DNA of 64,000 nt from Gottschalkia acidurici 9a (GTDB taxonomy: Bacteria; Bacillota; Clostridia; Tissierellales; Gottschalkiaceae), in contig NC_018664.1 in assembly GCF_000299355.1 (NCBI RefSeq), positions 3,023,993 to 3,087,992 on the forward strand. The letters run 5' to 3'. Each line of letters begins with the position of its first letter. The first letter of the stretch is position 1. The translations under genes and the position numbers were made by a program. This document shows, in pieces, positions 5,703 to 58,223 of this stretch. The notes beneath the pieces are model-generated. The model made no database searches. It was not told the DNA's origin and worked only from the letters and a program-made list of their open reading frames with translations.

Positions 5703-5714
5703 AAAAATAAAAAA

Positions 5715-5830
5715 ACCAGCAACGTCTTACTCTCCCAGGCAGTCTCCCGCCAAGTACCATCAGCGCTGAAGGGCTTAACTTCTGTGTTCGGTATGGGAAC
5801 AGGTGTGACCCCTTCGCTATCGTCACTGGA
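5715..5830 (-). rRNA. rrf: 5S ribosomal RNA
   Basis: Read on the minus strand, the sequence contains the conserved 5S block CCCATACCGAACACAGAAG and the closing GGGAGACTGCCTGGGAGAG region. Its ends pair (CCAG...CTGG). The length is about 115 nt. It is the last gene of the operon, separated from 23S by about 70 bp. Confidence 0.95.
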
Positions 5831-5902
5831 TTTCTTTGCTTTTTTAAAGATGTTTTGCACCTTCAAAACTACACAGCGATTAGATTATTCTTTAATATAT
5901 TG

Positions 5903-8836
<2,934 letters not shown>

Positions 8837-9092
8837 GTTAGTAAGTAAATATCAAATAAGTTTGACATTCACTACTCAATTTATTATTGAGATTTAATTT
8901 TCCTTAATATATTAATATATCTCGGTTAATTGTATTTTAATCTATTTCGCTGTGTAGTTTTCAAGGTACAATTTGTTTTAGACGGCATTTTATAAAGCAT
9001 AGGTATCAGATGTTTTATCTGATCTATCTTTATAAGTGTTCTAAAACTTATTTGAGAGTTTTGGTCTCTCAAAATTAAACAGTAAAAAGCGT

Positions 9093-10628
<1,536 letters not shown>

Positions 10629-46356: not shown

Positions 46357-47580
46357 TTAAAGTAAATACACATCTCTTTCCTCACCTTTATATATTCCTT
46401 CTTCATGTGATTGTATTTCTATATATCCTGATGACTGAGATAGTAACGTAATCATACCTGACTTCCCAAAGTTAGGTATGCAATAGACTTTTCCATCTCT
46501 TTCTTCTAGTGAAACCATTTGATAAGTAGTTTTTCCTGAAGATGAAGGGAAGTTAAAGTCTACTATAGCTTTAACTCTATCTTTTCCCTCTTTTACTCCC
46601 ATTATATCCTTAATAAATCTTTCTACTAACGCTTTAAATACTATTATAGATGACACAGGATGTCCTGGAAGCCCGAATACTCCCTTTCCTCTAGCTTCAC
46701 CAATGATTGTAGGTTTACCAGGTTTTATAGACATTCCATGTATAAAAACACCTTTACCCTCAAATGAATCTATAACTTGATGAGTAAAATCTCTTACACC
46801 AACTGAACTTCCTCCCGAAAGAATAACTATATCACTATCTTCTAAACCATTTTCAACTTCTTGCTTTAGTAATTCAAAGTTGTCTTTTACTATAGTTCTA
46901 TTTACTACTTCTCCACCTATTTTTTGTATCATAGAGTATAGAACATAGCTATTTATGTCTCTTATCTTTCCTATCTTCATTTCTTCATCTAAATCTATAA
47001 TTTCGTCACCCGTAGATATTATATAGAACTTAAGTTTTTTATATACTTTCACTTTAAAAATCCCAAGAGACGCTAATACCCCAATGTCCTGTGGGGTTAT
47101 CTTTTTGCCCTTTTCTAATGCTACTTGTCCTATTTTAATATCATCATCTTTAAATATTACATTCTCACCAAATGATATAGGCTTATATATTAGTATGTTT
47201 TCTTCATCCATCTTTTCTACATGCTCTATCATTATTACACCATCTGCTCCCTTAGGAAGCATACCGCCAGTAGGAACATAGATAGCTTCACCTGGATGAA
47301 TTTCTGTAACAGCTTCTTTTCCCATTCTTATCTCGCCATTTAAACTTAAGAAACTAGGAAGGGACTCACTGGCTCCATGACTATCACTCGATTTTATAGC
47401 ATATCCATCTACCGTTGATCTATCAAAACCTGGAACATTCTCTTCAGAAATAATATCATCGCATAGTATTCTGTCTGCAGAGCTTAGTATATCTACATAT
47501 TCCGATTCTAATTCTAAATTAATATTTTCTAGTAATAACTTTCTCGCTTCCTCAACTGATACAACATTAAAAAAATCCAT
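46357..47580 (-). CDS. moeA: Molybdopterin molybdenumtransferase MoeA
   Basis: The 407-residue protein has a full MoeA: FDRSTVDGYAI, GAGVIMIEHVE-type segment (GADGVIMIEHVEKM), LISTGDEI-like IISTGDEIIDL, ILSGGSSVGVRDFT and GKPTIIGEARGKGVFGLPGHPVSS. It inserts molybdate or tungstate into adenylylated molybdopterin. It is the last gene of the tungstate transporter operon (tupA-tupB-tupC-moeA), a placement that suggests tungsten insertion, while the MoeA-PBP fusion may serve molybdenum; that division of labour is inference. Confidence 0.93.
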   Translation of the reverse strand: MDFFNVVSVEEARKLLLENINLELESEYVDILSSADRILCDDIISEENVPGFDRSTVDGYAIKSSDSHGASESLPSFLSLNGEIRMGKEAVTEIHPGEAIYVPTGGMLPKGADGVIMIEHVEKMDEENILIYKPISFGENVIFKDDDIKIGQVALEKGKKITPQDIGVLASLGIFKVKVYKKLKFYIISTGDEIIDLDEEMKIGKIRDINSYVLYSMIQKIGGEVVNRTIVKDNFELLKQEVENGLEDSDIVILSGGSSVGVRDFTHQVIDSFEGKGVFIHGMSIKPGKPTIIGEARGKGVFGLPGHPVSSIIVFKALVERFIKDIMGVKEGKDRVKAIVDFNFPSSSGKTTYQMVSLEERDGKVYCIPNFGKSGMITLLSQSSGYIEIQSHEEGIYKGEERDVYLL

Positions 47581-47589
47581 ACTAACTCC

Positions 47590-48231
47590 CTACCTTTCAT
47601 CCTTTTTTAATCTTCCTTTTTCAAGATAAATTATTTCATTACATAATCTTTTTGACTGTTCTAAATTATGAGTGACTATAATTACAGTTCCTTTCTTTTC
47701 TCTATTATACCTTATTATTTCTCTTTCCATTATTTTAATTGACTCTGGGTCTATATTAGATGTAGGTTCATCCAGAAATAATACTTTGGGATTAAATACC
47801 AACGCTCTAGCTAGTGAAACTTTTTGTGACTCTCCACCTGATAATTTATGTGCTTGCTTATCTTTTAAATCATATATCTCTAAATCATATAAAATTTTCT
47901 CTACTTTTTGTTTTATTTTATCTTTATCTATCTTTCTTATTCTCAATGGATAATATATATTTTCAAAAACTGTCCTTTTAAATAAATATGGTCTTTGCAT
48001 AACCATAGTAATTTTATCATATATACTTTCATCTATGTTTTTTTCATCATAAAGTATTTTTCCTAAAAAATTATTATCTAACCCAGCTATTATATTTAAA
48101 AGAGTACTTTTCCCACATCCATTAGGTCCTGTTACTCCTGTTATTTTCTCTTTATTTATTTTTAATTCATCTATATTTAGTACTAGATTCTCACCATAAT
48201 ATTTTTTAATATTTAAGCCTGTAATATTCAT
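47590..48231 (-). CDS. tupC: Tungstate ABC transporter ATP-binding protein
   Basis: About 213 residues; start ATG 48231 (MNITGLN) follows GGAGG, and the upstream open codons are rejected because they overlap the permease gene. Walker A is GPNGCGKSTLL, the Q-loop VMQRPYLF, the signature LSGGESQKVSLARAL and Walker B VLFLDEPTSNID. It powers import of oxyanion together with the permease just upstream. Specificity is taken from the TupA-type binding protein in the same operon. Confidence 0.92.
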   Translation of the reverse strand: MNITGLNIKKYYGENLVLNIDELKINKEKITGVTGPNGCGKSTLLNIIAGLDNNFLGKILYDEKNIDESIYDKITMVMQRPYLFKRTVFENIYYPLRIRKIDKDKIKQKVEKILYDLEIYDLKDKQAHKLSGGESQKVSLARALVFNPKVLFLDEPTSNIDPESIKIMEREIIRYNREKKGTVIIVTHNLEQSKRLCNEIIYLEKGRLKKDER

Positions 48232-48232
48232 T

Positions 48233-48922
48233 TTAATCCTCCATACTATAGGAATATATAATGCTATTAATTCCAAACGATATTATCAGTAATACTATTC
48301 CTAATGCTATAGCCATAGGATAATCTCCCATAGAGTTTAACATGGATATGGAAGTAGTTATAACTCTAGTATATCCTTTTATATTTCCCCCTACTATCAT
48401 AACTGCTCCTACTTCAGATATTGCTCTTGAAAATGCTGTTACTATATTCATAAGTATATCTATTCTTAGCTCTTTTATTATGAGTATAATTATGTCCAGT
48501 TTGCTAGCTCCCAAAGTCTTACCTATTTTTTCTATAGACTTCCCTCTATTTTTAGAAATATTATAAGTTAGACCAAGTATTAAAGGGGTTACTAGCACTG
48601 TTTGTGCTATTATCATAGCGGTAGGACTATACATCAAATCTAAAAAACCTAAAGGTCCTCTTCTAGATAGTATTATAGCTATTACTAAACCTACTATAAC
48701 TGAAGGTGTACTCATAAGTGTATATAATATTCTTGAAAAAATTTTCTTACCCTTGAAGTCTTTTATACCCAAGTATATACCTAATGGAACTGTTATTATA
48801 GAGGAAAGTATCGTAGAAAGTGAAGATACAAACACTGACAATATAACTATTCCGTATACTTCCTTGTCAAAACCTATCAAAAGTTTAAACGCTTCCATTA
48901 TCCCACTTAATATATAATCCAT
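48233..48922 (-). CDS. tupB: Tungstate ABC transporter permease
   Basis: The 229-residue inner-membrane permease has five to six transmembrane helices and the ABC permease EAA-like loop (IGKTLGASKLDIIILIIKEL). Two-gene operons of this size with a TupA-type binding protein are the tungstate (TupABC) type. A hairpin in front of it (48950-49000) separates it from tupA. Its stop overlaps the tupC ribosome binding site. Confidence 0.9.
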   Translation of the reverse strand: MDYILSGIMEAFKLLIGFDKEVYGIVILSVFVSSLSTILSSIITVPLGIYLGIKDFKGKKIFSRILYTLMSTPSVIVGLVIAIILSRRGPLGFLDLMYSPTAMIIAQTVLVTPLILGLTYNISKNRGKSIEKIGKTLGASKLDIIILIIKELRIDILMNIVTAFSRAISEVGAVMIVGGNIKGYTRVITTSISMLNSMGDYPMAIALGIVLLIISFGINSIIYSYSMED

Positions 48923-49029: not shown

Positions 49030-49923
49030 TTACTTAGCATTTGGTACAAACAGTGGCTGTCCAAATTCTTTTACTCCAAATTCACCTATTAATTTTTGAG
49101 TTTCTGCTGATAGCATCCAGTCCATGAATGTTTTTGCACCTTCTGCATTTATTTTATTATTCTTTTCAGGATTTACTGGTATAATACCATATTGATTAAA
49201 TAGATTTTCATCTTTTTCTACTAGAATATCTAAATCTAAAACATCTTTCATACTTAGATAAGTAGCTCTATCTGTTAAAGTGTATCCTTTCTTTTCACTA
49301 GCTATTTTTAGTGTATCGCCCATTCCACGACCAGATTCCATATACCAATCTCCCTCTGGCTTTATTCCGGCCGTTTCCCAAATTTTCATTTCTTTATCAT
49401 GTGTTCCAGACTTATCAGCTCTTGAAACAAAAATAGCTTTATTTTCTGATATAGTTTTAAATCCATTAACTATATCACTTCCATACTTTTCTTTTAACTT
49501 TAGTGAATCATCTTTAGGTCCTACTAAAATAAAGTCATTATACATTACATCTTTTCTCTCAGTTCCATGTCCTTCTTTTACAAACTGTTCCTCTTTTACT
49601 TTAGAGTGAACTAAAAGTATATCTGCATCACCATCTTTACCTTTTTGAAGAGCCTCACCAGTTCCTACTGCTATCACTTTTACTTTTATACCTGTTTCTT
49701 CTTCAAACTTAGGTAATAAGAAGTCTAAAAGTCCACTATCTTGTGTACTAGTAGTAGTAGATAAGATTATAGAACCACCTTTTTTAGTATCTTTTTCTGA
49801 CTCTTCTACTTTTGACTTAGTTTCATTCTTTGGCTCTTCTACTTTATTACTACATCCAGCTAGTACAGATAACGATAAAACTAAACATAGAAGAACAGCA
49901 AATAGTTTTTTCATATTTTTCAT
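49030..49923 (-). CDS. tupA: Tungstate-binding lipoprotein
   Basis: The 297-residue protein is a lipoprotein: basic N-terminus, hydrophobic stretch and lipobox LAGC at ~20-23. The mature part starts with a charged linker and has the tungstate-specific motif LSTTTSTQDSGLL at ~53-65, as in TupA of Eubacterium acidaminophilum and Campylobacter, and the SRADKSGTHDKE and GRGMGDTLKIA oxyanion-contact segments. It captures tungstate outside the membrane for TupBC. A riboswitch-like leader lies upstream. Confidence 0.95.
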   Translation of the reverse strand: MKNMKKLFAVLLCLVLSLSVLAGCSNKVEEPKNETKSKVEESEKDTKKGGSIILSTTTSTQDSGLLDFLLPKFEEETGIKVKVIAVGTGEALQKGKDGDADILLVHSKVKEEQFVKEGHGTERKDVMYNDFILVGPKDDSLKLKEKYGSDIVNGFKTISENKAIFVSRADKSGTHDKEMKIWETAGIKPEGDWYMESGRGMGDTLKIASEKKGYTLTDRATYLSMKDVLDLDILVEKDENLFNQYGIIPVNPEKNNKINAEGAKTFMDWMLSAETQKLIGEFGVKEFGQPLFVPNAK

Positions 49924-50068: not shown

Positions 50069-50132
50069 AAAAAAAGTAGTCTTCCATAAAAGTCATTTTA
50101 AATAAGTGACTCCTTTTGGAAAGACTACTTTT
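50069..50132 (-). terminator. Terminator of the tupA riboswitch
   Basis: Arms AAAAGTAGTCTTTCC (50118-50132) and GGAAGACTACTTTTTTT (50069-50085) on the minus strand form a long stem with a U run. The 5' arm contains CTTTCCAAA (50123-50115), which is the exact complement of TTTGGAAAG (50192-50184) in the aptamer. Confidence 0.88.
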
Positions 50133-50133
50133 G

Positions 50134-50254
50134 AGTATGCAAAGTTATAAAAAGTATATATACTTAAACATACTCAAACCTTCCTTTCCAAACGTGGGAG
50201 GCACAAAAGTTTCCCTTTATACCCATGGTCTTAAATTTCATGGAATTTCTTTCT
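50134..50254 (-). promoter_or_regulatory. Moco/tungsten-cofactor riboswitch upstream of tupA
   Basis: On the minus strand the sequence GTGCCTCCCACGTTTGGAAAGG (22 nt; 50202-50181 region, core GCCTCCC and TTTGGAAAGG) matches the conserved core of the MOCO RNA motif seen before E. coli moaA (GCCUCCC followed by UGGAAAGG). Just upstream GGTATAAAG pairs with CTTTTGTGCC to form the conserved stem ending in CCTCCC. The 5' part is short, resembling the variants that lack the P3 stem and were proposed to sense tungsten cofactor. A terminator downstream with complementary 9-nt segments suggests control by transcription termination. It sits directly after fdhD and controls the tungstate importer. Confidence 0.82.
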
Positions 50255-51037
50255 TTAGAAATCTAAGCTCGGAAAATTTGAATATATATTCATTTTATCT
50301 CCTCTAACAAAACCTATTACAGTTATATTTAAGTCTTTAGCCATCTCTATGGTTAAATTAGTTGGAGCTGATCTTGAAACTATTATAGGCAATCCTATCT
50401 TTGCCACTTTAATTAAAACTTCTGATGATATTCTACCACTAGTTAAAATCATCTTATCTGATATATCCATGCCTTGCATGAATACTTTTCCAATTATTTT
50501 ATCTAAAGCGTTATGTCTACCGATATCTTCTTCAAATATTAATATATTTTCTCTGTCACATAATGCACAACTATGAACTCCACCAGTCTTTAAAAAGAGT
50601 TCGGATTCTTTATTAAAAGTTCTTATGAGTTTCTTTATATCATCTGTATTAATTTTAGTATCATTTTTTATCTTTTTAGATTTAAATGAATCTATTACAT
50701 TGTAAAAAACTGTTCCTTTTCCACAACCAGTAGTTATAGTTCTTTTTCCATAAAGTTTTTCAGAAAGATTAGTTTTATTTTTAGTATAGACGTAGGCTAT
50801 TCCTTTTTCTTTATCTATTCTTATATTTTTAATATCCTCTTTTGACTTTATAAGTCCTTCGGAGTGTAAAAAACCAATAGCTAAATATTCTAAAGAACTA
50901 GGAGTACATAATAGAGTTATAAACTCGTTATCATTTAGAAAAATTGTAAATGCATGTTCAACTATAACATAGTCTTTATCTTCATATATTTCTTCACCTT
51001 TTACTCTTATAATGTCATATTCTTTAGTTCCTGTCAT
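50255..51037 (-). CDS. fdhD: Formate dehydrogenase sulfurtransferase FdhD
   Basis: The 260-residue protein transfers sulfur from a cysteine desulfurase to the Mo/W cofactor of formate dehydrogenase, which is required for activity. Motifs: TLLCTPSSLEYLAIGFL, TTGCGKGT (active cysteine; the second Cys of the E. coli CxxC is absent, as in many anaerobes), GGVHSCALCD, EDIGRHNALDKI, TSGRISSEVL and VSRSAPTNLTIEMA. It is 20 bp downstream of mobA, in the formate dehydrogenase operon. Its stop codon is directly before the riboswitch. Confidence 0.95.
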   Translation of the reverse strand: MTGTKEYDIIRVKGEEIYEDKDYVIVEHAFTIFLNDNEFITLLCTPSSLEYLAIGFLHSEGLIKSKEDIKNIRIDKEKGIAYVYTKNKTNLSEKLYGKRTITTGCGKGTVFYNVIDSFKSKKIKNDTKINTDDIKKLIRTFNKESELFLKTGGVHSCALCDRENILIFEEDIGRHNALDKIIGKVFMQGMDISDKMILTSGRISSEVLIKVAKIGLPIIVSRSAPTNLTIEMAKDLNITVIGFVRGDKMNIYSNFPSLDF

Positions 51038-51056: not shown

Positions 51057-51665
51057 TTAAATATTTGAGTAATTTCTTATATAATCATCTAATTCATCTC
51101 TAGTATTAAGGTTAATAAACATTTCCCATTTTGGACTAAACCTTCTAGCATCATCTTCTTCTATATATAGTGTATCTGATTTTTGTAGAAAAGAATTAAC
51201 AGATCTTTTATTTTCCTGTAAATGTTTTTCTATTCCATAATATAAATCTTTAGAGTAAAAGCTGTTAAAAGCTTCTATCCAGTTTCCAAATTTAGTTACA
51301 CATGCTTGCGGTTCTTGCTCCCTTTCCTGCATCTTTTTCTTCATATATCTAATATATTCTATACTTATATTAGGCATATCGCAAGCTATAAAATAAGCAT
51401 ATTTACTTGAAGAATTTTTAAGCCCTACATGAAGTCCTGAAAGAGGTCCCATTTCTTTTATAATATCACTTACTATCTTATCACCAAAGCCTATATAGTA
51501 CTCTGGCTTGTTAGTAACTACTATTATTTCGTTAAACTCTTTCTTAAGCTTGGATATAACTATATCCATAACTCTTCTTTCTTTTATCTTTAAAAATTGT
51601 TTATCAAATCCCATTCTAGAGCTTTTTCCACCAGCTAATATAATAGCTGTTCCAAATTTACTCAT
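51057..51665 (-). CDS. mobA: Molybdenum cofactor guanylyltransferase MobA
   Basis: The 202-residue protein has AIILAGGKSSRMGFDKQFL at the N-terminus (nucleotide loop), GPLSGLHVGL and ACDMPNISIE, matching MobA. It attaches GMP to the molybdopterin cofactor to make the bis-MGD form used by formate dehydrogenases. The gene lies between moaB/mog and fdhD within the formate dehydrogenase operon, which fits its job of finishing the W/Mo-bisMGD cofactor. Confidence 0.93.
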   Translation of the reverse strand: MSKFGTAIILAGGKSSRMGFDKQFLKIKERRVMDIVISKLKKEFNEIIVVTNKPEYYIGFGDKIVSDIIKEMGPLSGLHVGLKNSSSKYAYFIACDMPNISIEYIRYMKKKMQEREQEPQACVTKFGNWIEAFNSFYSKDLYYGIEKHLQENKRSVNSFLQKSDTLYIEEDDARRFSPKWEMFINLNTRDELDDYIRNYSNI

Positions 51666-51699: not shown

Positions 51700-52191
51700 C
51701 TACCTAGCACACTCGCTATCTCTACCAGTCATTATCTCTAGTCCATGATGAACTGAGTCTATTATATATTCAAGTGTCTCTCTTACTGCCTTTGGACTTC
51801 CTGGTAAGTTTATAATTAATGTTGTATCTTTTCTAATACCCGAAGTAGCTCTTGATAACATAGCTCTTGGAGTAAATTGTAAGCTAAAATTTCTCATAGC
51901 CTCTGGTATTCCAGGCACTAGCCTATCTATTACTTTAAGAGTAGCCTCAGGAGTTACATCTCTCTTGGCAAATCCAGTTCCACCAGTAGTTAGTATAAGG
52001 TCTATCTTTAGATTATCACACATATTTATCATTTCGTTAGATAATGAATCTAAGTCATCTGGAAGTATAACTTGTTTTTCTACTTTATATCCTTTTTCTT
52101 CAACTATTTCACGTATAACTAATCCACTCTTATCTTCTCTTTGTCCTGTAGATCCTTTATCACTAGCTGTTATTATACCTACCCTAAACAT
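51700..52191 (-). CDS. mog: Molybdopterin adenylyltransferase (MogA/MoaB family)
   Basis: The protein has about 163 residues; the start ATG 52191 (MFRVGI) follows GGGGAGG. The motifs GIITASDKGSTGQREDKSG, LILTTGGTGFAKRDVTPEAT and INLPGSPKAVRE define the MogA/MoaB family, which adenylylates molybdopterin before metal insertion. Placed between the ferritin-like gene (2 bp) and mobA (34 bp) in the cofactor part of the formate dehydrogenase operon. MogA and MoaB cannot be told apart here. Confidence 0.93.
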   Translation of the reverse strand: MFRVGIITASDKGSTGQREDKSGLVIREIVEEKGYKVEKQVILPDDLDSLSNEMINMCDNLKIDLILTTGGTGFAKRDVTPEATLKVIDRLVPGIPEAMRNFSLQFTPRAMLSRATSGIRKDTTLIINLPGSPKAVRETLEYIIDSVHHGLEIMTGRDSECAR

Positions 52192-52193
52192 TT

Positions 52194-52691
52194 TTAACCT
52201 CCCCAAGGAAGTGACATATATTCTTTCATTCTTCTATCATATTCTTCTTTAAATATAGATTCATGCCCTGCTTCCCAACCTGCTAAAGTTTCAAAAAGTT
52301 CCTTTATAATAGGTTCATCTGCTTGCTTAGATGCATTCTCATAGAATTCTTTAAAATCTCTCTCTATAAGATAAGCCATTCTCAATATAGTTATATCTGG
52401 AACATCGCTTTCTTTTAATGCTGCATCTACATATTCTTTTTTCGATCTTTTTTCAAATATTTCTGGATCGACATCTTCAAGCATTTCTTCTATTTCAAAT
52501 GTATCACTTTTCACATACTTTTCTAAATGTCTCTTTAGAAAATTATAGTGATCCATCTCTACCTCTGATAAGTTTAAAAATAGTGCTTTAGCAGTTTCAC
52601 TTGTAACCTGCCCCGCTTTTTCTTTAAAGAAATTAGAACCATCAAGCTCCATTTGCATAGCATATCTTATTGCTTGTTCATACTTTTTCAA
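52194..52691 (-). CDS. Ferritin-like diiron protein (rubrerythrin family, no rubredoxin domain)
   Basis: The 165-residue protein is a four-helix ferritin-like domain with two metal-binding half-sites: MELDGSNFFKEKA and LSEVEMDHYNFLKRH (first pair), LIERDFKEFYENAS and GWEAGHESIFKEEYDR (second pair). The rubredoxin domain of classic rubrerythrin is missing. Such proteins sit beside formate dehydrogenase genes in clostridia and probably protect the oxygen-sensitive enzymes against peroxide or store iron. Two bp separate it from mog, and 15 bp from the Cys-type formate dehydrogenase. Confidence 0.85.
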   Translation of the reverse strand: MKKYEQAIRYAMQMELDGSNFFKEKAGQVTSETAKALFLNLSEVEMDHYNFLKRHLEKYVKSDTFEIEEMLEDVDPEIFEKRSKKEYVDAALKESDVPDITILRMAYLIERDFKEFYENASKQADEPIIKELFETLAGWEAGHESIFKEEYDRRMKEYMSLPWGG

Positions 52692-52706: not shown

Positions 52707-55355
52707 CTAGCTTATTTTCTCTATTTTAACTGCTGCAACCTTAAGTTCTGGTATTTTAGCAGCAGAATCAATTTTAGGATTAGTAAGATAATTTGCAGCG
52801 CCCTCTGCAAAATGAAATGGTATAAATACTACACCTTCTTCTACTATATCTGTTACTTTAGCCTTGACATCTATTGTACCTCTTCTTGATGTCACTTTAA
52901 CAAATTCACCATCTTTGATTCCTAGTTTATTTGCTGTTATTTCACTTATCTCTATATACGATTCTGGTACCTTTTCATTTAACTTTTCTACTCTTCCAGT
53001 CATGGTTCTAGTATGATACTGATAAAGTACTCTACCTGTAGTTAGTATATATGGATATTCACTATCAGCAGTTTCAGCACTACCTACATGATGAACCGGG
53101 AAAAATAATCCCCTTCCTCTAGCTATAGCATCTTTATATAGATACTTAGTTCCAGGGTGATCTTTATCTAGGCAAGGCCATTGTAGTCCTTCAGTTTCTA
53201 TCCTATCATAGCTTATACCACCATATTGTGGTGTTAAACTAGCTATTTCATCCATTACTTCTGAAACATTTCTATATCTTTTAGTATATCCTAGTCTATT
53301 CATAATCTCTATTAGTATCTGCCAGTCTGGTTTAGAGTCTCCTATTGATTCAATAGCTCTTCTTACTCTTTGGACTCTTCTTTCTGTATTTGTAAATGTT
53401 CCATCCTTCTCAGCAAAAGAAGCTGCCGGTAAAACAACATCTGCAAATTCAGCAGTTTCAGTTAAAAATATATCCTGAACAATCAAAAAATCAAGCTTTT
53501 CTAACGCATGCTTAACATGGTTTATATCTGGATCCGATATCATAGGATTTTCTCCCATTATATATAGCAGTTTAGCATTTTCAAGTATTTCTGCCATAGT
53601 CATCCCTACTTCTCTTGGTAAACTAACACCCCAAGCTTTTTCAAACTTATCAGCTATTTCTTCTTTAAACACTTTCTGATATCCTGGTAAGTCTGATGGT
53701 AATCCACCCATATCACAAGCACCCTGAACGTTATTTTGTCCACGAAGTGGATTTACACCTGCATTTTCTTTGCCTATGTTTCCACACATAAGTGCTAAGT
53801 TCGATACTGCCATTACCATATTGGTTCCTGATGTGTGTTGAGTTATACCCATTGCATAATATATTCCTGCTTTATCTGACTCTGCATATATTCTGGCTGC
53901 TTTTATAATATCATCTTTATCTACGCCACATACTTCTGCTACCTTTTCAGGTGTATAATCTCTAACTACTTCTTTAACTTCTTCAAAGTTTTCAGTTCTT
54001 TTATCTATATAATCCTTATCATAAAGTTCATTTTCTATTATATAGTTCATCATTCCATTTAAAAGAGCTATATTCGTTCCCGGCTTAAGCTGTAAGAATA
54101 CATCTGCTTTATCTGCAAGTTCTATTCTTCTAGGATCTGCTACTATTATCTTGGCTCCTTTTTTATTAGCTTGTTTCATTTTAGTCGCTATAACTGGATG
54201 ATTTTCTGAAGTATTTGAACCTATAATAAATATAACATCTGTATCAAGAACTTCATTTATACTATTAGTCATAGCACCACTTCCAAGTGTAGTTGCAAGT
54301 CCAGAGACTGTAGAAGAGTGACAGAGACGTGCGCAATGATCTATATTATTAGTTCCTATAACTGCTCTGAATAACTTCTGAAATAGGTAGTTTTCTTCAT
54401 TCGTACATCTTGCTGAAGTAAATCCACCTAAAGCATTAGATCCATGCTTTTCTTTAATTTCTTTTATCTTTGAAACTATTAAATTGAATGCTTCATCCCA
54501 TGAAGCTTCTCTAAATTTGCCTTTTTCCTTTATAAGAGGAGTCTTAAGTCTATCCGGATGATTTATAAACGGATATCCAAATTTACCTTTTACACATACA
54601 AGACCATTATTTGATGGACCTTTAGCTGGCTTAGAATCGACTACTGTATTTCCTTTAGTCATTAATTCTAATTGACATCCTACTCCGCAGTATGGGCAAG
54701 TCGTTAAAGTACTTTTAGTCTCCCAGACTCTAGCCTTTTCCTTAGATTTAGGCATTAATGCTCCTACTGGACATGCTGATACGCAATTACCACATGAAGC
54801 ACAAGTAGAATCTCCTATTCCACTTGACACACTTGTTCTAAATCCTCTTTCACCTAAAGCTATAGCTGATGATCCTTGTAGTTCACCACATATCCTAACG
54901 CATTTACCACATAAAACACATTTATTTGGATCATAGTGGTAAAAATGATTACTATCATCTATTGGTAACTTTCTCTTTTCACCTTTATAACTGTCTTTTT
55001 TAACATCATATTCATAACAGTAATTTTGTAATTTGCATTCTCCTGATTTTCCACAGTTTAAGCAATCATTTGGATGATTTGAGAATAAGAGGTCTAAAAC
55101 ATCTTTTCTTGCTTTCACTACTTTTTCACTATGTGTTTCTATTTTCATACCCTCTTCTACTTTAAGAGAACATGATGTCATAAGGTTTTTTCTTCCCTCA
55201 ACTTCAACCACACATAATCTACATGAAGAATCTGGTTCTAATCTATCATCATAGCATAAAGTCGGTATATCTATTCCATTTTCTTGGCAAGCTTGAAGAA
55301 CTGTAGTACCTTCATTAACCTTATATTTCTTTCCGTTAATAGTTATATTTATCAT
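52707..55355 (-). CDS. fdhF: Formate dehydrogenase catalytic subunit, Cys paralogue
   Basis: The 882-residue W/Mo-bisMGD enzyme oxidises formate to CO2 or the reverse. It has an N-terminal NuoG-like part: 2Fe-2S (CRLCVVEVEG region, ~44-53), His-Cys cluster (CLNCGKSGECKLQNYC), and two 4Fe-4S motifs (CVLCGKCVRIC; CASCGNCVSACPVGAL). The catalytic part begins CPYCGVGC (~221). The active-site residue is Cys in DHCARLCHSSTVSGLA, where the neighbouring paralogue has a UGA-coded selenocysteine. The second half shares long identical DNA with the Sec copy. A 183-bp spacer with weak hairpins separates the two genes. Confidence 0.93.
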   Translation of the reverse strand: MINITINGKKYKVNEGTTVLQACQENGIDIPTLCYDDRLEPDSSCRLCVVEVEGRKNLMTSCSLKVEEGMKIETHSEKVVKARKDVLDLLFSNHPNDCLNCGKSGECKLQNYCYEYDVKKDSYKGEKRKLPIDDSNHFYHYDPNKCVLCGKCVRICGELQGSSAIALGERGFRTSVSSGIGDSTCASCGNCVSACPVGALMPKSKEKARVWETKSTLTTCPYCGVGCQLELMTKGNTVVDSKPAKGPSNNGLVCVKGKFGYPFINHPDRLKTPLIKEKGKFREASWDEAFNLIVSKIKEIKEKHGSNALGGFTSARCTNEENYLFQKLFRAVIGTNNIDHCARLCHSSTVSGLATTLGSGAMTNSINEVLDTDVIFIIGSNTSENHPVIATKMKQANKKGAKIIVADPRRIELADKADVFLQLKPGTNIALLNGMMNYIIENELYDKDYIDKRTENFEEVKEVVRDYTPEKVAEVCGVDKDDIIKAARIYAESDKAGIYYAMGITQHTSGTNMVMAVSNLALMCGNIGKENAGVNPLRGQNNVQGACDMGGLPSDLPGYQKVFKEEIADKFEKAWGVSLPREVGMTMAEILENAKLLYIMGENPMISDPDINHVKHALEKLDFLIVQDIFLTETAEFADVVLPAASFAEKDGTFTNTERRVQRVRRAIESIGDSKPDWQILIEIMNRLGYTKRYRNVSEVMDEIASLTPQYGGISYDRIETEGLQWPCLDKDHPGTKYLYKDAIARGRGLFFPVHHVGSAETADSEYPYILTTGRVLYQYHTRTMTGRVEKLNEKVPESYIEISEITANKLGIKDGEFVKVTSRRGTIDVKAKVTDIVEEGVVFIPFHFAEGAANYLTNPKIDSAAKIPELKVAAVKIEKIS

Positions 55356-55538: not shown

Positions 55539-58223
55539 TTAACAACTTTCTTTTAATTTTTCTATTTTTACCGCTGCAACTTTAAGCTCAGGTATCTTAG
55601 CTATAGGATCAAGCTCTGTATTAGTTAAATAGTTTGCAGCTCCCTCAGCAAAGTGGAATGGTATAAATACTACATCTTCATCTACTATATCTGTTACTTT
55701 AACTGCTATATTTATATTTCCTCTTCTTGAAGTAACTTTAACTACTTCTCCATCTTTTATCCCCATTTTGTTTGCAGTAACCTCGTTTAACTCTATAAAT
55801 GAGCTTGGTACTTTTTTATTTAATCCATCTACTCTTCCAGTCATAGTTCTAGTGTGATAGTGGTATAATACCCTTCCAGTAGTTAATATGAATGGATATT
55901 CTTCACTCTTAGTTTCTGCACTACCTGTATATTCAACTGGGAAGAATAATCCTCTACCTCTAGCTATAGCTTCCTTGTGTAGATACTTAGTACCCGGATG
56001 CTCTTTAGTAGGGCAAGGCCATTGGATTCCTTCATCCTCTATTCTTTCATAAGTTATCCCACCATATGATGGTGTAACACTAGCTATTTCATCCATTATT
56101 TCAGATGTGTCTAGATATATTTTATTATATCCAGCTTTATTCATTATCTCCATTAAGATTTGCCAGTCTGCTTTAGCATTACCTACTGGTTCTATAGCCT
56201 TTCTTACTCTTTGAACTCTTCTTTCTGTATTTGAGAATGTTCCATCTTTTTCTGCAAATGAAGCAGCTGGTAAAACGACATCTGCAAATTCAGCTGTTTC
56301 TGTTAAGAATATATCTTGAACTACTAAAAAATCTACACTTTCAAGAGCATGTTGTACGTGTGTTATATCTGGGTCAGATACCATAGGGTTTTCTCCCATG
56401 ATATATAGGAATCTTATATCTCCAGTTTCAGCACCATGAATCATTTCTGATATAGCTAGTCCTACTTGTCTTGATAAGCTAACTCCCCATGCCTTTTCAA
56501 ATTTTTCAGCAATTTCTTCTTTAAATACTTTTTGATATCCAGGTAAATCTGATGGTAAACATCCCATATCGCAAGCTCCCTGTACATTGTTTTGTCCACG
56601 AAGTGGATTTACGCCTGCATTTTCTTTACCTATATTTCCACACATAAGTGCTAAGTTAGATATTGCAATTACATTGTGAGTACCTGTTGTATGTTGAGTT
56701 ATACCCATTGCATAGTATATTCCTGCTCTATCTGATTCTGCATAAATTCTAGCAGCTTTAATAATATCATCTTTATTTACTTCACAGATTTCAGCTACCT
56801 TTTCAGGTGTATAGTCTTTTACAACTTGTTTAACTTCTTCAAAGTTTTCAGTTCTTTTATCTATATAATCCTTATCATAAAGTTCATTTTCTATTATATA
56901 GTTCATCATTCCATTTAAAAGAGCTATGTTTGTTCCTGGTTTGATTTGTAAGAATACATCAGCTTGATCTGCTAACTCTATTCTCCTAGGATCTGCTACT
57001 ATTATTTTAGCTCCTTTTTTCTTCGCTTGTTTCATTTGAGTTCCTATAACTGGATGATTCTCTGTAGTGTTTGAACCAATAACAAATAAAACATCATTAT
57101 CTACTGTTTCTCTAACGCTATTAGTCATAGCTCCACTTCCAAGTGTAGTTGCAAGACCTGCAACTGTAGAAGCATGTCAGAGTCGAGCACAGTGATCTAC
57201 ATTGTTTGTCCCAATTACTGCCCTAAATAATTTTTGGAATAAATAATTCTCTTCATTTGTACATCTTGCTGAAGAAAATCCTCCAAAAGCATCTGCTCCA
57301 TAGTTTTCTTTAGTTTCTTTTATTTTTGAAGCTATAAGTGAAATAGCCTCGTTCCAAGAAGCCTCTTCCAATACTCCATTTTTTCTGATAAGTGGATTTT
57401 TAAGTCTATCTGGATGATTAATAAAAGGATATCCAAATTTACCTTTTACACATAATAGACCATCATTAGGCTTTCCATTAACAGGTTGTACACCCACGAT
57501 TTTACCATTGGTTGATATAAGTTCAAATTGACAACCTACTCCACAGTATGAACAAGTAGTTTTTGTTCTTTTAGTATCCCAATGTCTAAAGTTTTCTCTA
57601 GTTTTAGGAGTAAGAGCTCCTACTGGGCATACTGATACACAGTTACCACAAGATACACAAGTAGAGTTTTCTAATCCTTTTCTAAAAGGTGTACTAACTA
57701 AAGAATCAAATCCTCTTTCATCTATAGTTATTGCATTTGTACATTGTAGTTCATTACAAACTCTAACACATTTACCACAAAGGATACATTTGTTAGGGTC
57801 ATAAAAGTAAAAATGATTACTATCATCGATAGGAAGGCTTCTCTTTTCACCTTTATATCCTCCTTCAAGGATTCCATACTCATAACAGTAATCTTGTAAC
57901 TTACATTCTCCAGATTTTTTACAAGTCAAACAATCATTTGGATGATTTGAAAATAATAAGTCTAATACATCTTTTCTAGCACTTACTACTTTTTGACTAT
58001 CAGTTTGTATTACCATGCCATCATATACTTTAAGTGAACATGAAGTTGGAAGATTTCTCATTCCTTCAACTTCTACCACACATAATCTACAAGATGCATG
58101 TGGTTCTAGTCTTTCATCATGACATAGTGTTGGTATATCTATACCTACTTTTTGGCAAGCTTGAAGTACCGTAATATCTTCCGGTACTTCATAGCCTATG
58201 CCGTTGACAATTACTTTTATCAT
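55539..58223 (-). CDS. fdhF: Selenocysteine formate dehydrogenase catalytic subunit
   Basis: One gene of 895 codons, 894 residues, read through a UGA codon at 57179-57177. Up to the UGA the sequence reads NVDHCARL, after it HASTVAGLATTLGSGAMTNS, exactly where the paralogue has Cys; a SECIS hairpin follows the codon. Domains are as in the paralogue: 2Fe-2S, CLTCKKSGECKLQDYC, CILCGKCVRVC, CVSCGNCVSVCPVGAL, then CSYCGVGC and the bis-MGD domains to the end. Start ATG 58223 follows AAAGGAGAA. It lies 24 bp downstream of the HylA-like gene, so it is the catalytic subunit of that complex. Naive gene finding splits it into two pieces. Confidence 0.95.
57140..57179 (-). promoter_or_regulatory. SECIS element with the UGA selenocysteine codon
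   Basis: The UGA codon is at 57179-57177. Eleven nt later the minus strand folds AGTTGCA ... TGCAACT (57165-57147) with the loop GGTCT, the same apical GGUCU loop bound by SelB in E. coli fdhF mRNA (GUUGCAGGUCUGCA). This identifies a bacterial SECIS and supports selenocysteine insertion. Confidence 0.92.

Follow-up and report, generated by a model that had tools for sequence, protein, structure and literature searches.

How does a riboswitch aptamer come to stand between a formate dehydrogenase operon and a tungstate importer, where does it begin and end, and what would it do there? The locus in question lies on the minus strand of a 64,000-nucleotide stretch of Gottschalkia acidurici 9a (contig NC_018664.1; below, the window, whose positions are used throughout). 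A preliminary description, made from the letters alone, had proposed at 50069-50256 a riboswitch for the molybdenum or tungsten cofactor that controls the tungstate importer, and we followed this up by covariance-model, profile, and folding analyses and by comparison with related genomes.

A full-length aptamer that lacks P3

The preliminary description named the Rfam MOCO_RNA model as its check and the absence of a covariance-model hit as its refuter; cmscan with this model gave, on the contrary, a strong match to RF01055 (79.3 bits, gathering score 36; E = 1.5e-17; untruncated over positions 1-135 of the 135 in the model). In folding, the aptamer reaches -39.8 kcal/mol (z = -4.8), with 0 of 200 shuffles as low, and the RF01055 alignment and the fold together place the junction segments CCGAG, CCUCCC, and UUUGGAAAGG amid the stems P1, P2, P4, and P5. 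The core noticed in the letters is there with its stem: on the minus strand, the match at 50202-50193 starts with GCCTCCC, and TTTGGAAAGG occupies 50192-50183. P4 bears a GNRA tetraloop (GAAA), and CUAA...AUG is aligned to the P2 receptor, its putative tertiary partner. In the junction, as read by eye, P2 and P4 are joined by just four nucleotides (CCAT) and P3 is absent; this rules out a P3 stem that is present but overlooked. The aptamer is an ordinary, well-formed member of a known riboswitch class, Moco RNA (RF01055, the molybdenum-tungsten riboswitch aptamer reportedly described by Weinberg in 2007), and the class had been correctly recognized.

The boundaries had not. The range first proposed cuts the aptamer, leaving out its 5' 30 nt (50257-50286), that is, the P1 5' strand, CCGAG, and the P2 5' strand. 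The 5' part had been likened to the short one of tungsten-type variants; it seemed short because its first 30 nt sit inside fdhD (50255-51037), and what is truly shortened in the structure is the missing P3. The class, its P3-lacking form, and the types of associated genes are described in the available text of PMC2408646 (2008). With Moco RNAs in general, our element shares the full model match, the GAAA tetraloop and receptor, the CCUCCC/UUUGGAAAGG core, a platform of the terminator type, and a setting among genes of Mo/W cofactor metabolism (here tupABC-moeA). With the P3-lacking form, the proposed Tuco riboswitch, it shares the absence of P3 and the tungsten-related genes downstream, the aptamer itself being no different.

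Genes around the aptamer

Five tightly spaced genes, fdhF-rbr-mogA-mobA-fdhD, lie upstream, and tupA is indeed the next gene after the switch, followed by tupB, tupC, and moeA (Table 1). Besides its NF041772 match, TupA has close relatives in the PDB (3lr1, deposited as a tungstate-binding protein, E = 8e-68; 5my5, E = 3e-63). TupA, TupB, and TupC do not reach their curated NCBIfam cut-offs; for TupA this says little here, because in a phylum sample of 398 genomes NF041772 is matched in 188 and its 400 bits are reached in none. Farther upstream, a second fdhF (55539-58223, minus strand) has an in-frame TGA (57177-57179) for selenocysteine (HCARLUHAST) where the first has Cys, so that Sec and Cys forms stand in tandem upstream of the aptamer. 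The genome encodes five PF00384 proteins and one AOR, and another match to PF00384, at C2:1736766, contains one TGA. The window also holds one rRNA operon (16S-23S-5S, 5714-10627, minus strand), and ARAGORN found no tRNA genes in its 64 kb.

Table 1. Features of the fdhD-tupABC-moeA locus in order of transcription
Feature	Position	Strand	Evidence or remark
fdhF, formate dehydrogenase alpha, Cys form	52707..55355	-	TIGR01591, 925 bits
Rubrerythrin-like gene (rbr), upstream operon	52194..52691	-	ferritin-domain matches under cut-off
mogA, upstream operon	51700..52206	-	NF006932, 160.7 bits (cut-off 158)
mobA, upstream operon	51057..51665	-	
fdhD; C-terminus ...MNIYSNFPSLDF encoded by aptamer 5' strand	50255..51037	-	TIGR00129, 241 bits (cut-off 140.9)
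P1 5' strand, within fdhD coding sequence	50271..50287	-	17 bp with 50168-50184 in Gottschalkia acidurici
P3-lacking Moco RNA aptamer (RF01055), full length	50165..50286	-	cmscan, 79.3 bits; fold z -4.8
CUAA of P2 tetraloop receptor	50255..50258	-	supplies fdhD stop UAA (50255-50257)
P4 hairpin, GAAA tetraloop	50199..50224	-	cmscan alignment, fold
Conserved TTTGGAAAGG; also 5' half of inner antiterminator stem	50183..50192	-	sequence
P1 3' strand; in the antiterminator, its GTTTGAGTATG is paired with CATACTCAAA (50130-50139)	50168..50184	-	folding
Anti-P1 strand CATACTCAAA	50130..50139	-	folding, sequence
Intrinsic terminator, seven T	50069..50132	-	-23.4 kcal/mol alone
CTTTCCAAA in terminator 5' arm, exact complement of TTTGGAAAG	50115..50123	-	sequence
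tupA, tungstate-binding protein	49030..49923	-	NF041772, 249.8 bits (cut-off 400); PDB 3lr1, 3muq, 5my5
tupB, permease	48233..48922	-	NF041773, 174.1 bits (cut-off 320); NF038017, 212.3 bits (cut-off 100)
tupC, ATPase, start codon uncertain	47590..48276	-	generic ABC matches; NF041774, 141 bits (cut-off 400); position
moeA	46357..47580	-	profile match

The aptamer encodes the end of FdhD

The last codons of fdhD, AUA UAU UCA AAU UUU CCG AGC UUA GAU UUC UAA, read I-Y-S-N-F-P-S-L-D-F-stop, and these bases serve a second time in the RNA, as the 5' strands of P1 and P2, as the conserved CCGAG, and as the CUAA of the tetraloop receptor. The locus is thus arranged as a conserved dual-coding overlap, a feature absent from the preliminary description. 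Herein lies its difference from the Moco RNAs of PMC2408646, whose available text does not mention an fdhD that ends in the 5' strand of P1 and P2 and takes its stop codon from the receptor. A search of titles and abstracts, with most subscription journals outside its reach, likewise turned up no paper describing the fdhD overlap among those on the class, on overlaps, or on fdhD and riboswitches.

For the order Tissierellales we assembled 125 aptamers (120 regions plus the loci of this genome and of one family member), which are the best 125 among the RF01055 matches listed, down to 61 bits; of the weaker matches, only two, found through fdhD (G220 and G221), were used in addition. FdhD lies upstream with its stop 31 to 33 nt into the aptamer in 32 of these best 125, and three further overlap loci, one truncated where its contig stops (L086) and two with weaker matches (L212 and L213), raise the count to 35. 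The overlap therefore occurs in at least 35 loci of 35 genomes, covering 21 genera and 7 families of the order; it has a single phase and a single place in all 35, and in 34 of them tupA follows within 1.8 kb. Searching the class sample with a strict pattern, which would pass over looser forms, gave no overlap in the 390 other genomes, among them 18 further members of the order. The inner seven P1 pairs form in 32 to 35 of the 35 relatives and the outer pairs do not; because of this, the 17-pair P1 of our locus is not general.

The codons within the overlap are uniform when set against a background of fdhD and the nearby Mo/W genes of the same loci. Proline is encoded by CCG in 33 of the 33 overlap loci that have it (background, 91 of 2,215 Pro codons), Phe, where it is the last residue, is encoded by UUC in 29 of 29 loci (392 of 2,345), and fdhD stops with UAA in 35 of 35 (91 of 215 complete neighboring genes). 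This invariance is local, since the codons just upstream vary (Ile: ATC 19, ATA 8, ATT 7; Tyr: TAT 22, TAC 13). As judged by comparing sequences from loci that are related and not independent, the codon choice shows selection on the RNA, beyond that on the peptide alone; it is the RNA, and not the overlap as such, on which the conserved codons show selection.

Natural controls are provided by genes that lack the arrangement. FdhD is matched in 88 genomes, and we read the gene ends of the 35 overlap loci, of 25 FdhD genes without an aptamer, and of two other FdhD genes near aptamers. The 25 mostly keep the MN(I/V/L)Y(S/T) end; their tails differ (NFTEFY, NIDRYL, NFDNII, KYKNLII, and others), as do their stops (UAA 15, UAG 7, UGA 3). 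Three of them have tails that, from their sequence, look like former or incipient overlap ends (NF(P/S)TLKV in G188 and G190, NLSSFID in G203). The tup aptamers of G203 lie elsewhere (L071), two in tandem before tupA at 1260-1379 and 1487-1606. On an FdhD tree of 57 rows, for which the overlap rows were trimmed of their tails, mapping the overlap label takes 11 changes, and well-supported branches force at least 5 of these; the overlap has therefore been lost, or gained, several times.

Does the overlap have a role of its own? We consider it somewhat more probable that it has none and is a relic of gene crowding, the aptamer having landed once at the end of fdhD and then been inherited. Such a single origin predicts the one phase and one place seen in 35 of 35 loci, and other aptamers of the class precede genes without an overlap of this kind; its persistence across 7 families and 21 genera speaks against a mere relic, as do the other tails and stops of the lineages without it and the repeated changes on the tree.

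Terminator, antiterminator, and the proposed switch

The preliminary description had pointed to a ready-made antiterminator, in that TTTGGAAAG of the aptamer is exactly complementary to CTTTCCAAA, which spans 50123-50115 and belongs to the 5' arm of a long hairpin ending in seven T (50095-50069). The complement of 9 nt is exact, and when the 120 nt downstream were shuffled 20,000 times, a perfect complement arose in only 0.04% of cases, which rules out chance complementarity. A terminator pattern scan of the region missed this hairpin, probably because of its loop limit of 8 nt. Aptamer and terminator together fold at -68 kcal/mol (z = -6.7). Both the terminator and the antiterminator are there as described, and we computed them as two exclusive folds; on its own, the antiterminator (-27.6 kcal/mol) is more stable than the terminator (-23.4 kcal/mol). 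It also extends beyond what had been noted, comprising UUUGGAAAG/CUUUCCAAA plus the pairing of the P1 3' strand GUUUGAGUAUG with CAUACUCAAA (50139-50130). P1 and the antiterminator are mutually exclusive because the P1 3' strand pairs in both, the typical build of such a switch.

We modeled the nascent RNA by folding growing 5' portions from 50300 downward, as a thermodynamic sketch. P1 is present at lengths of 150 to 162 nt, begins to meet competition from the anti-P1 strand at 168 nt, and has given way to the full antiterminator in the free RNA at 186 to 222 nt. When P1 is given an assumed bonus of -8 kcal/mol in imitation of bound ligand, it stays and the terminator forms, and an OFF switch is therefore predicted. 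In the full-length RNA, the terminator wins in every state. Across the 35 overlap loci, the scan used finds a strong terminator at 27 and none at 8; in 19 of the 27, the aptamer 3' end has a better complement in the terminator 5' arm than in shuffled arms (P < 0.05).

We think it quite probable that the element is a transcriptional OFF riboswitch, a P3-lacking Moco RNA, which at low cofactor lets transcription of the fdh operon continue into the tungstate importer. Three elements of this account are inferred: that the switch works in the OFF direction, that most of the transcript arrives by read-through from the fdh operon, and that the ligand is the tungsten cofactor. Transcription past fdhF-rbr-mogA-mobA-fdhD would reach the aptamer, which is at once the fdhD 3' end and the leader of tupABC-moeA. 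Were the pterin cofactor plentiful, most likely in its tungsten form, P1 would be held, the terminator would form, and the transcript would end after fdhD. Were it scarce, the terminator 5' arm and the stretch preceding it would be taken up in pairing with UUUGGAAAGG and the P1 3' strand, and with this antiterminator formed, RNA polymerase would continue into tupABC-moeA. The available text of PMC2408646 reports that the Escherichia coli member behaves as an OFF switch and that others have terminators.

As for a separate source of transcript, promoter-like sites around the aptamer are no more frequent than in shuffles (38 versus 37.7). A dedicated promoter immediately ahead of the aptamer would correspond to one weak match (TTGTTA-TATATT, 50310-50281), whose start point would cut P1; a promoter inside fdhD is possible.

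The plan recurs: an operon of the formate dehydrogenase type ending in fdhD is followed by the aptamer (35 loci) and then by tup (34 of 35). In two further genomes (G018 and G019), tupABC comes after an aptamer that directly follows an AOR-moaD-moeB operon, and in another two (G016 and G017) the aptamer after such an operon precedes moeA genes (moaD assigned by size and position in all four). Operons for tungsten enzymes with a tungstate importer behind a putative cofactor-sensing gate hence recur.

P3 and the metal

In the order, P3, assigned by eye from the aptamer junctions, is present in 11 and absent in 114 of the best 125 aptamers. Within 4.5 kb downstream, the P3-lacking aptamers have TupA in 52 cases and ModA in 1, those with P3 have TupA in 0 and ModA in 5 (Fisher P = 1.3e-6, for rows that come from related genomes and are not independent), and neither gene follows in 61 of the 114 and 6 of the 11, respectively. 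One aptamer of the order without P3, L161, lies beside modA. RF01055 occurs in 220 of the 398 phylum-sample genomes. Leaving our own locus out, seven phylum aptamers stand directly before TupA, six without P3 and one with it, and three more at a greater distance from TupA also lack P3; among the 30 phylum loci taken (gene presence and aptamers legible by eye), none has TupA within about 1.5 kb. The one exception before tupA (L297, G638:C12:6798-6937) and a P3-lacking aptamer beside modA (L246), both outside the order, break the rule, and P3 is for this reason a good but imperfect marker. The association repeats, within one order, the rule of Regulski 2008 (PMC2408646), in whose available text P3-lacking variants, 58 of 176, are proposed to sense the tungsten cofactor.

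Gene context makes the tungsten cofactor the most likely ligand. That the same switch instead responds to the molybdenum cofactor or to either form, tup being repressed with either of the two metals in the pterin, we regard as rather unlikely. The genome has a modA of its own (TIGR01256, 214.8 bits, with a weaker second match, 83.2 bits, above the cut-off), which fits such a ligand, as does the imperfection of P3 as a metal marker; the 52:0 distribution of TupA in favor of P3-lacking aptamers argues the other way, as does the fact that of the two RF01055 matches in the genome one is at tup and neither at a modA match. The other of the two ends an AOR operon, and AOR is typically a tungsten enzyme. 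Direct binding of Tuco is not shown in the available text of PMC2408646, and a 2022 review (PMC10043782), in the part available, counts both cofactors as ligands.

Possible ribosome gating at the fdhD stop

Because the stop codon lies within the aptamer, we also considered a ribosome-gated riboswitch, in which a ribosome at the fdhD stop would cover P1 and P2 and force antitermination, adding fdhD translation as a signal. With nucleotides -15 to +13 around the UAA blocked in the folding model, P1 no longer forms at 168 nt or more and the full antiterminator does from 186 nt, and the overlap is conserved; the footprint, however, is an assumption, and in the full-length RNA the terminator wins in all states, and we judge such gating unlikely. 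The evidence so far favors the neutral alternative, in which the overlap was inherited and has no function in itself. FdhD is the maturase of the tungsten formate dehydrogenase, and it seems quite improbable that the element is a dual sensor, in which the ribosome completing FdhD must leave before the aptamer folds and tungstate import is turned on by low cofactor together with heavy FdhD translation; if true, a riboswitch would be coupled to a full-length upstream gene as leader peptides are to attenuators.

A second aptamer and other settings

The second Moco aptamer of the genome (L003, 9787-9904; G000:C2:2626786-2626903, plus strand) closes an AOR-moaD-moeB operon at its 3' end; a terminator is present, there is no gene to control, and a convergent chemotaxis gene stands behind it. 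In its counterpart in another genus (G003, L026), the AOR operon also ends in aptamer and terminator, with a different neighbor 411 nt on, which we take to be a clpB-like gene. Between the two genera, the orphan aptamer is identical at 110 of 119 positions and the terminator at 25 of 26, the next 100 nt at only 60 of 111 and the third codon positions of moeB at 153 of 199; the orphan is conserved more than its surroundings. Like the antisense-acting riboswitches described in the available text of PMC9943018, it ends an operon before a convergent gene; unlike them, the fdhD/tup aptamer is sense-acting, and the arrangement of the orphan is kept in G003 without a convergent gene.

Other aptamers precede genes of further kinds. 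Seven stand before FecCD-type ABC transporters, six without P3 (L084, L128, L130, L142, L156, and L167), in which a gene for a Big_5 protein comes first, and one with it (L151). These transporters are perhaps, we assume, Mol-like molybdate/tungstate importers. For 24 of the 114 P3-lacking aptamers (e.g., L062, L069, L075, and L144), the first match within the gene set searched is to a secreted protein with SLH and/or molybdopterin-oxidoreductase-like domains.

Significance

Annotation that treats aptamers as purely intergenic cuts elements of this kind, as happened in the preliminary description. With importer, enzyme, and a strong switch in a compact locus, G. acidurici offers a good place to test the proposed tungsten-cofactor branch of the class. 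In the overlap, one stretch of RNA is under three demands at once, those of a protein C-terminus, a stop codon, and a ligand-binding fold, and it provides a testable link between translation of the upstream gene and the riboswitch.
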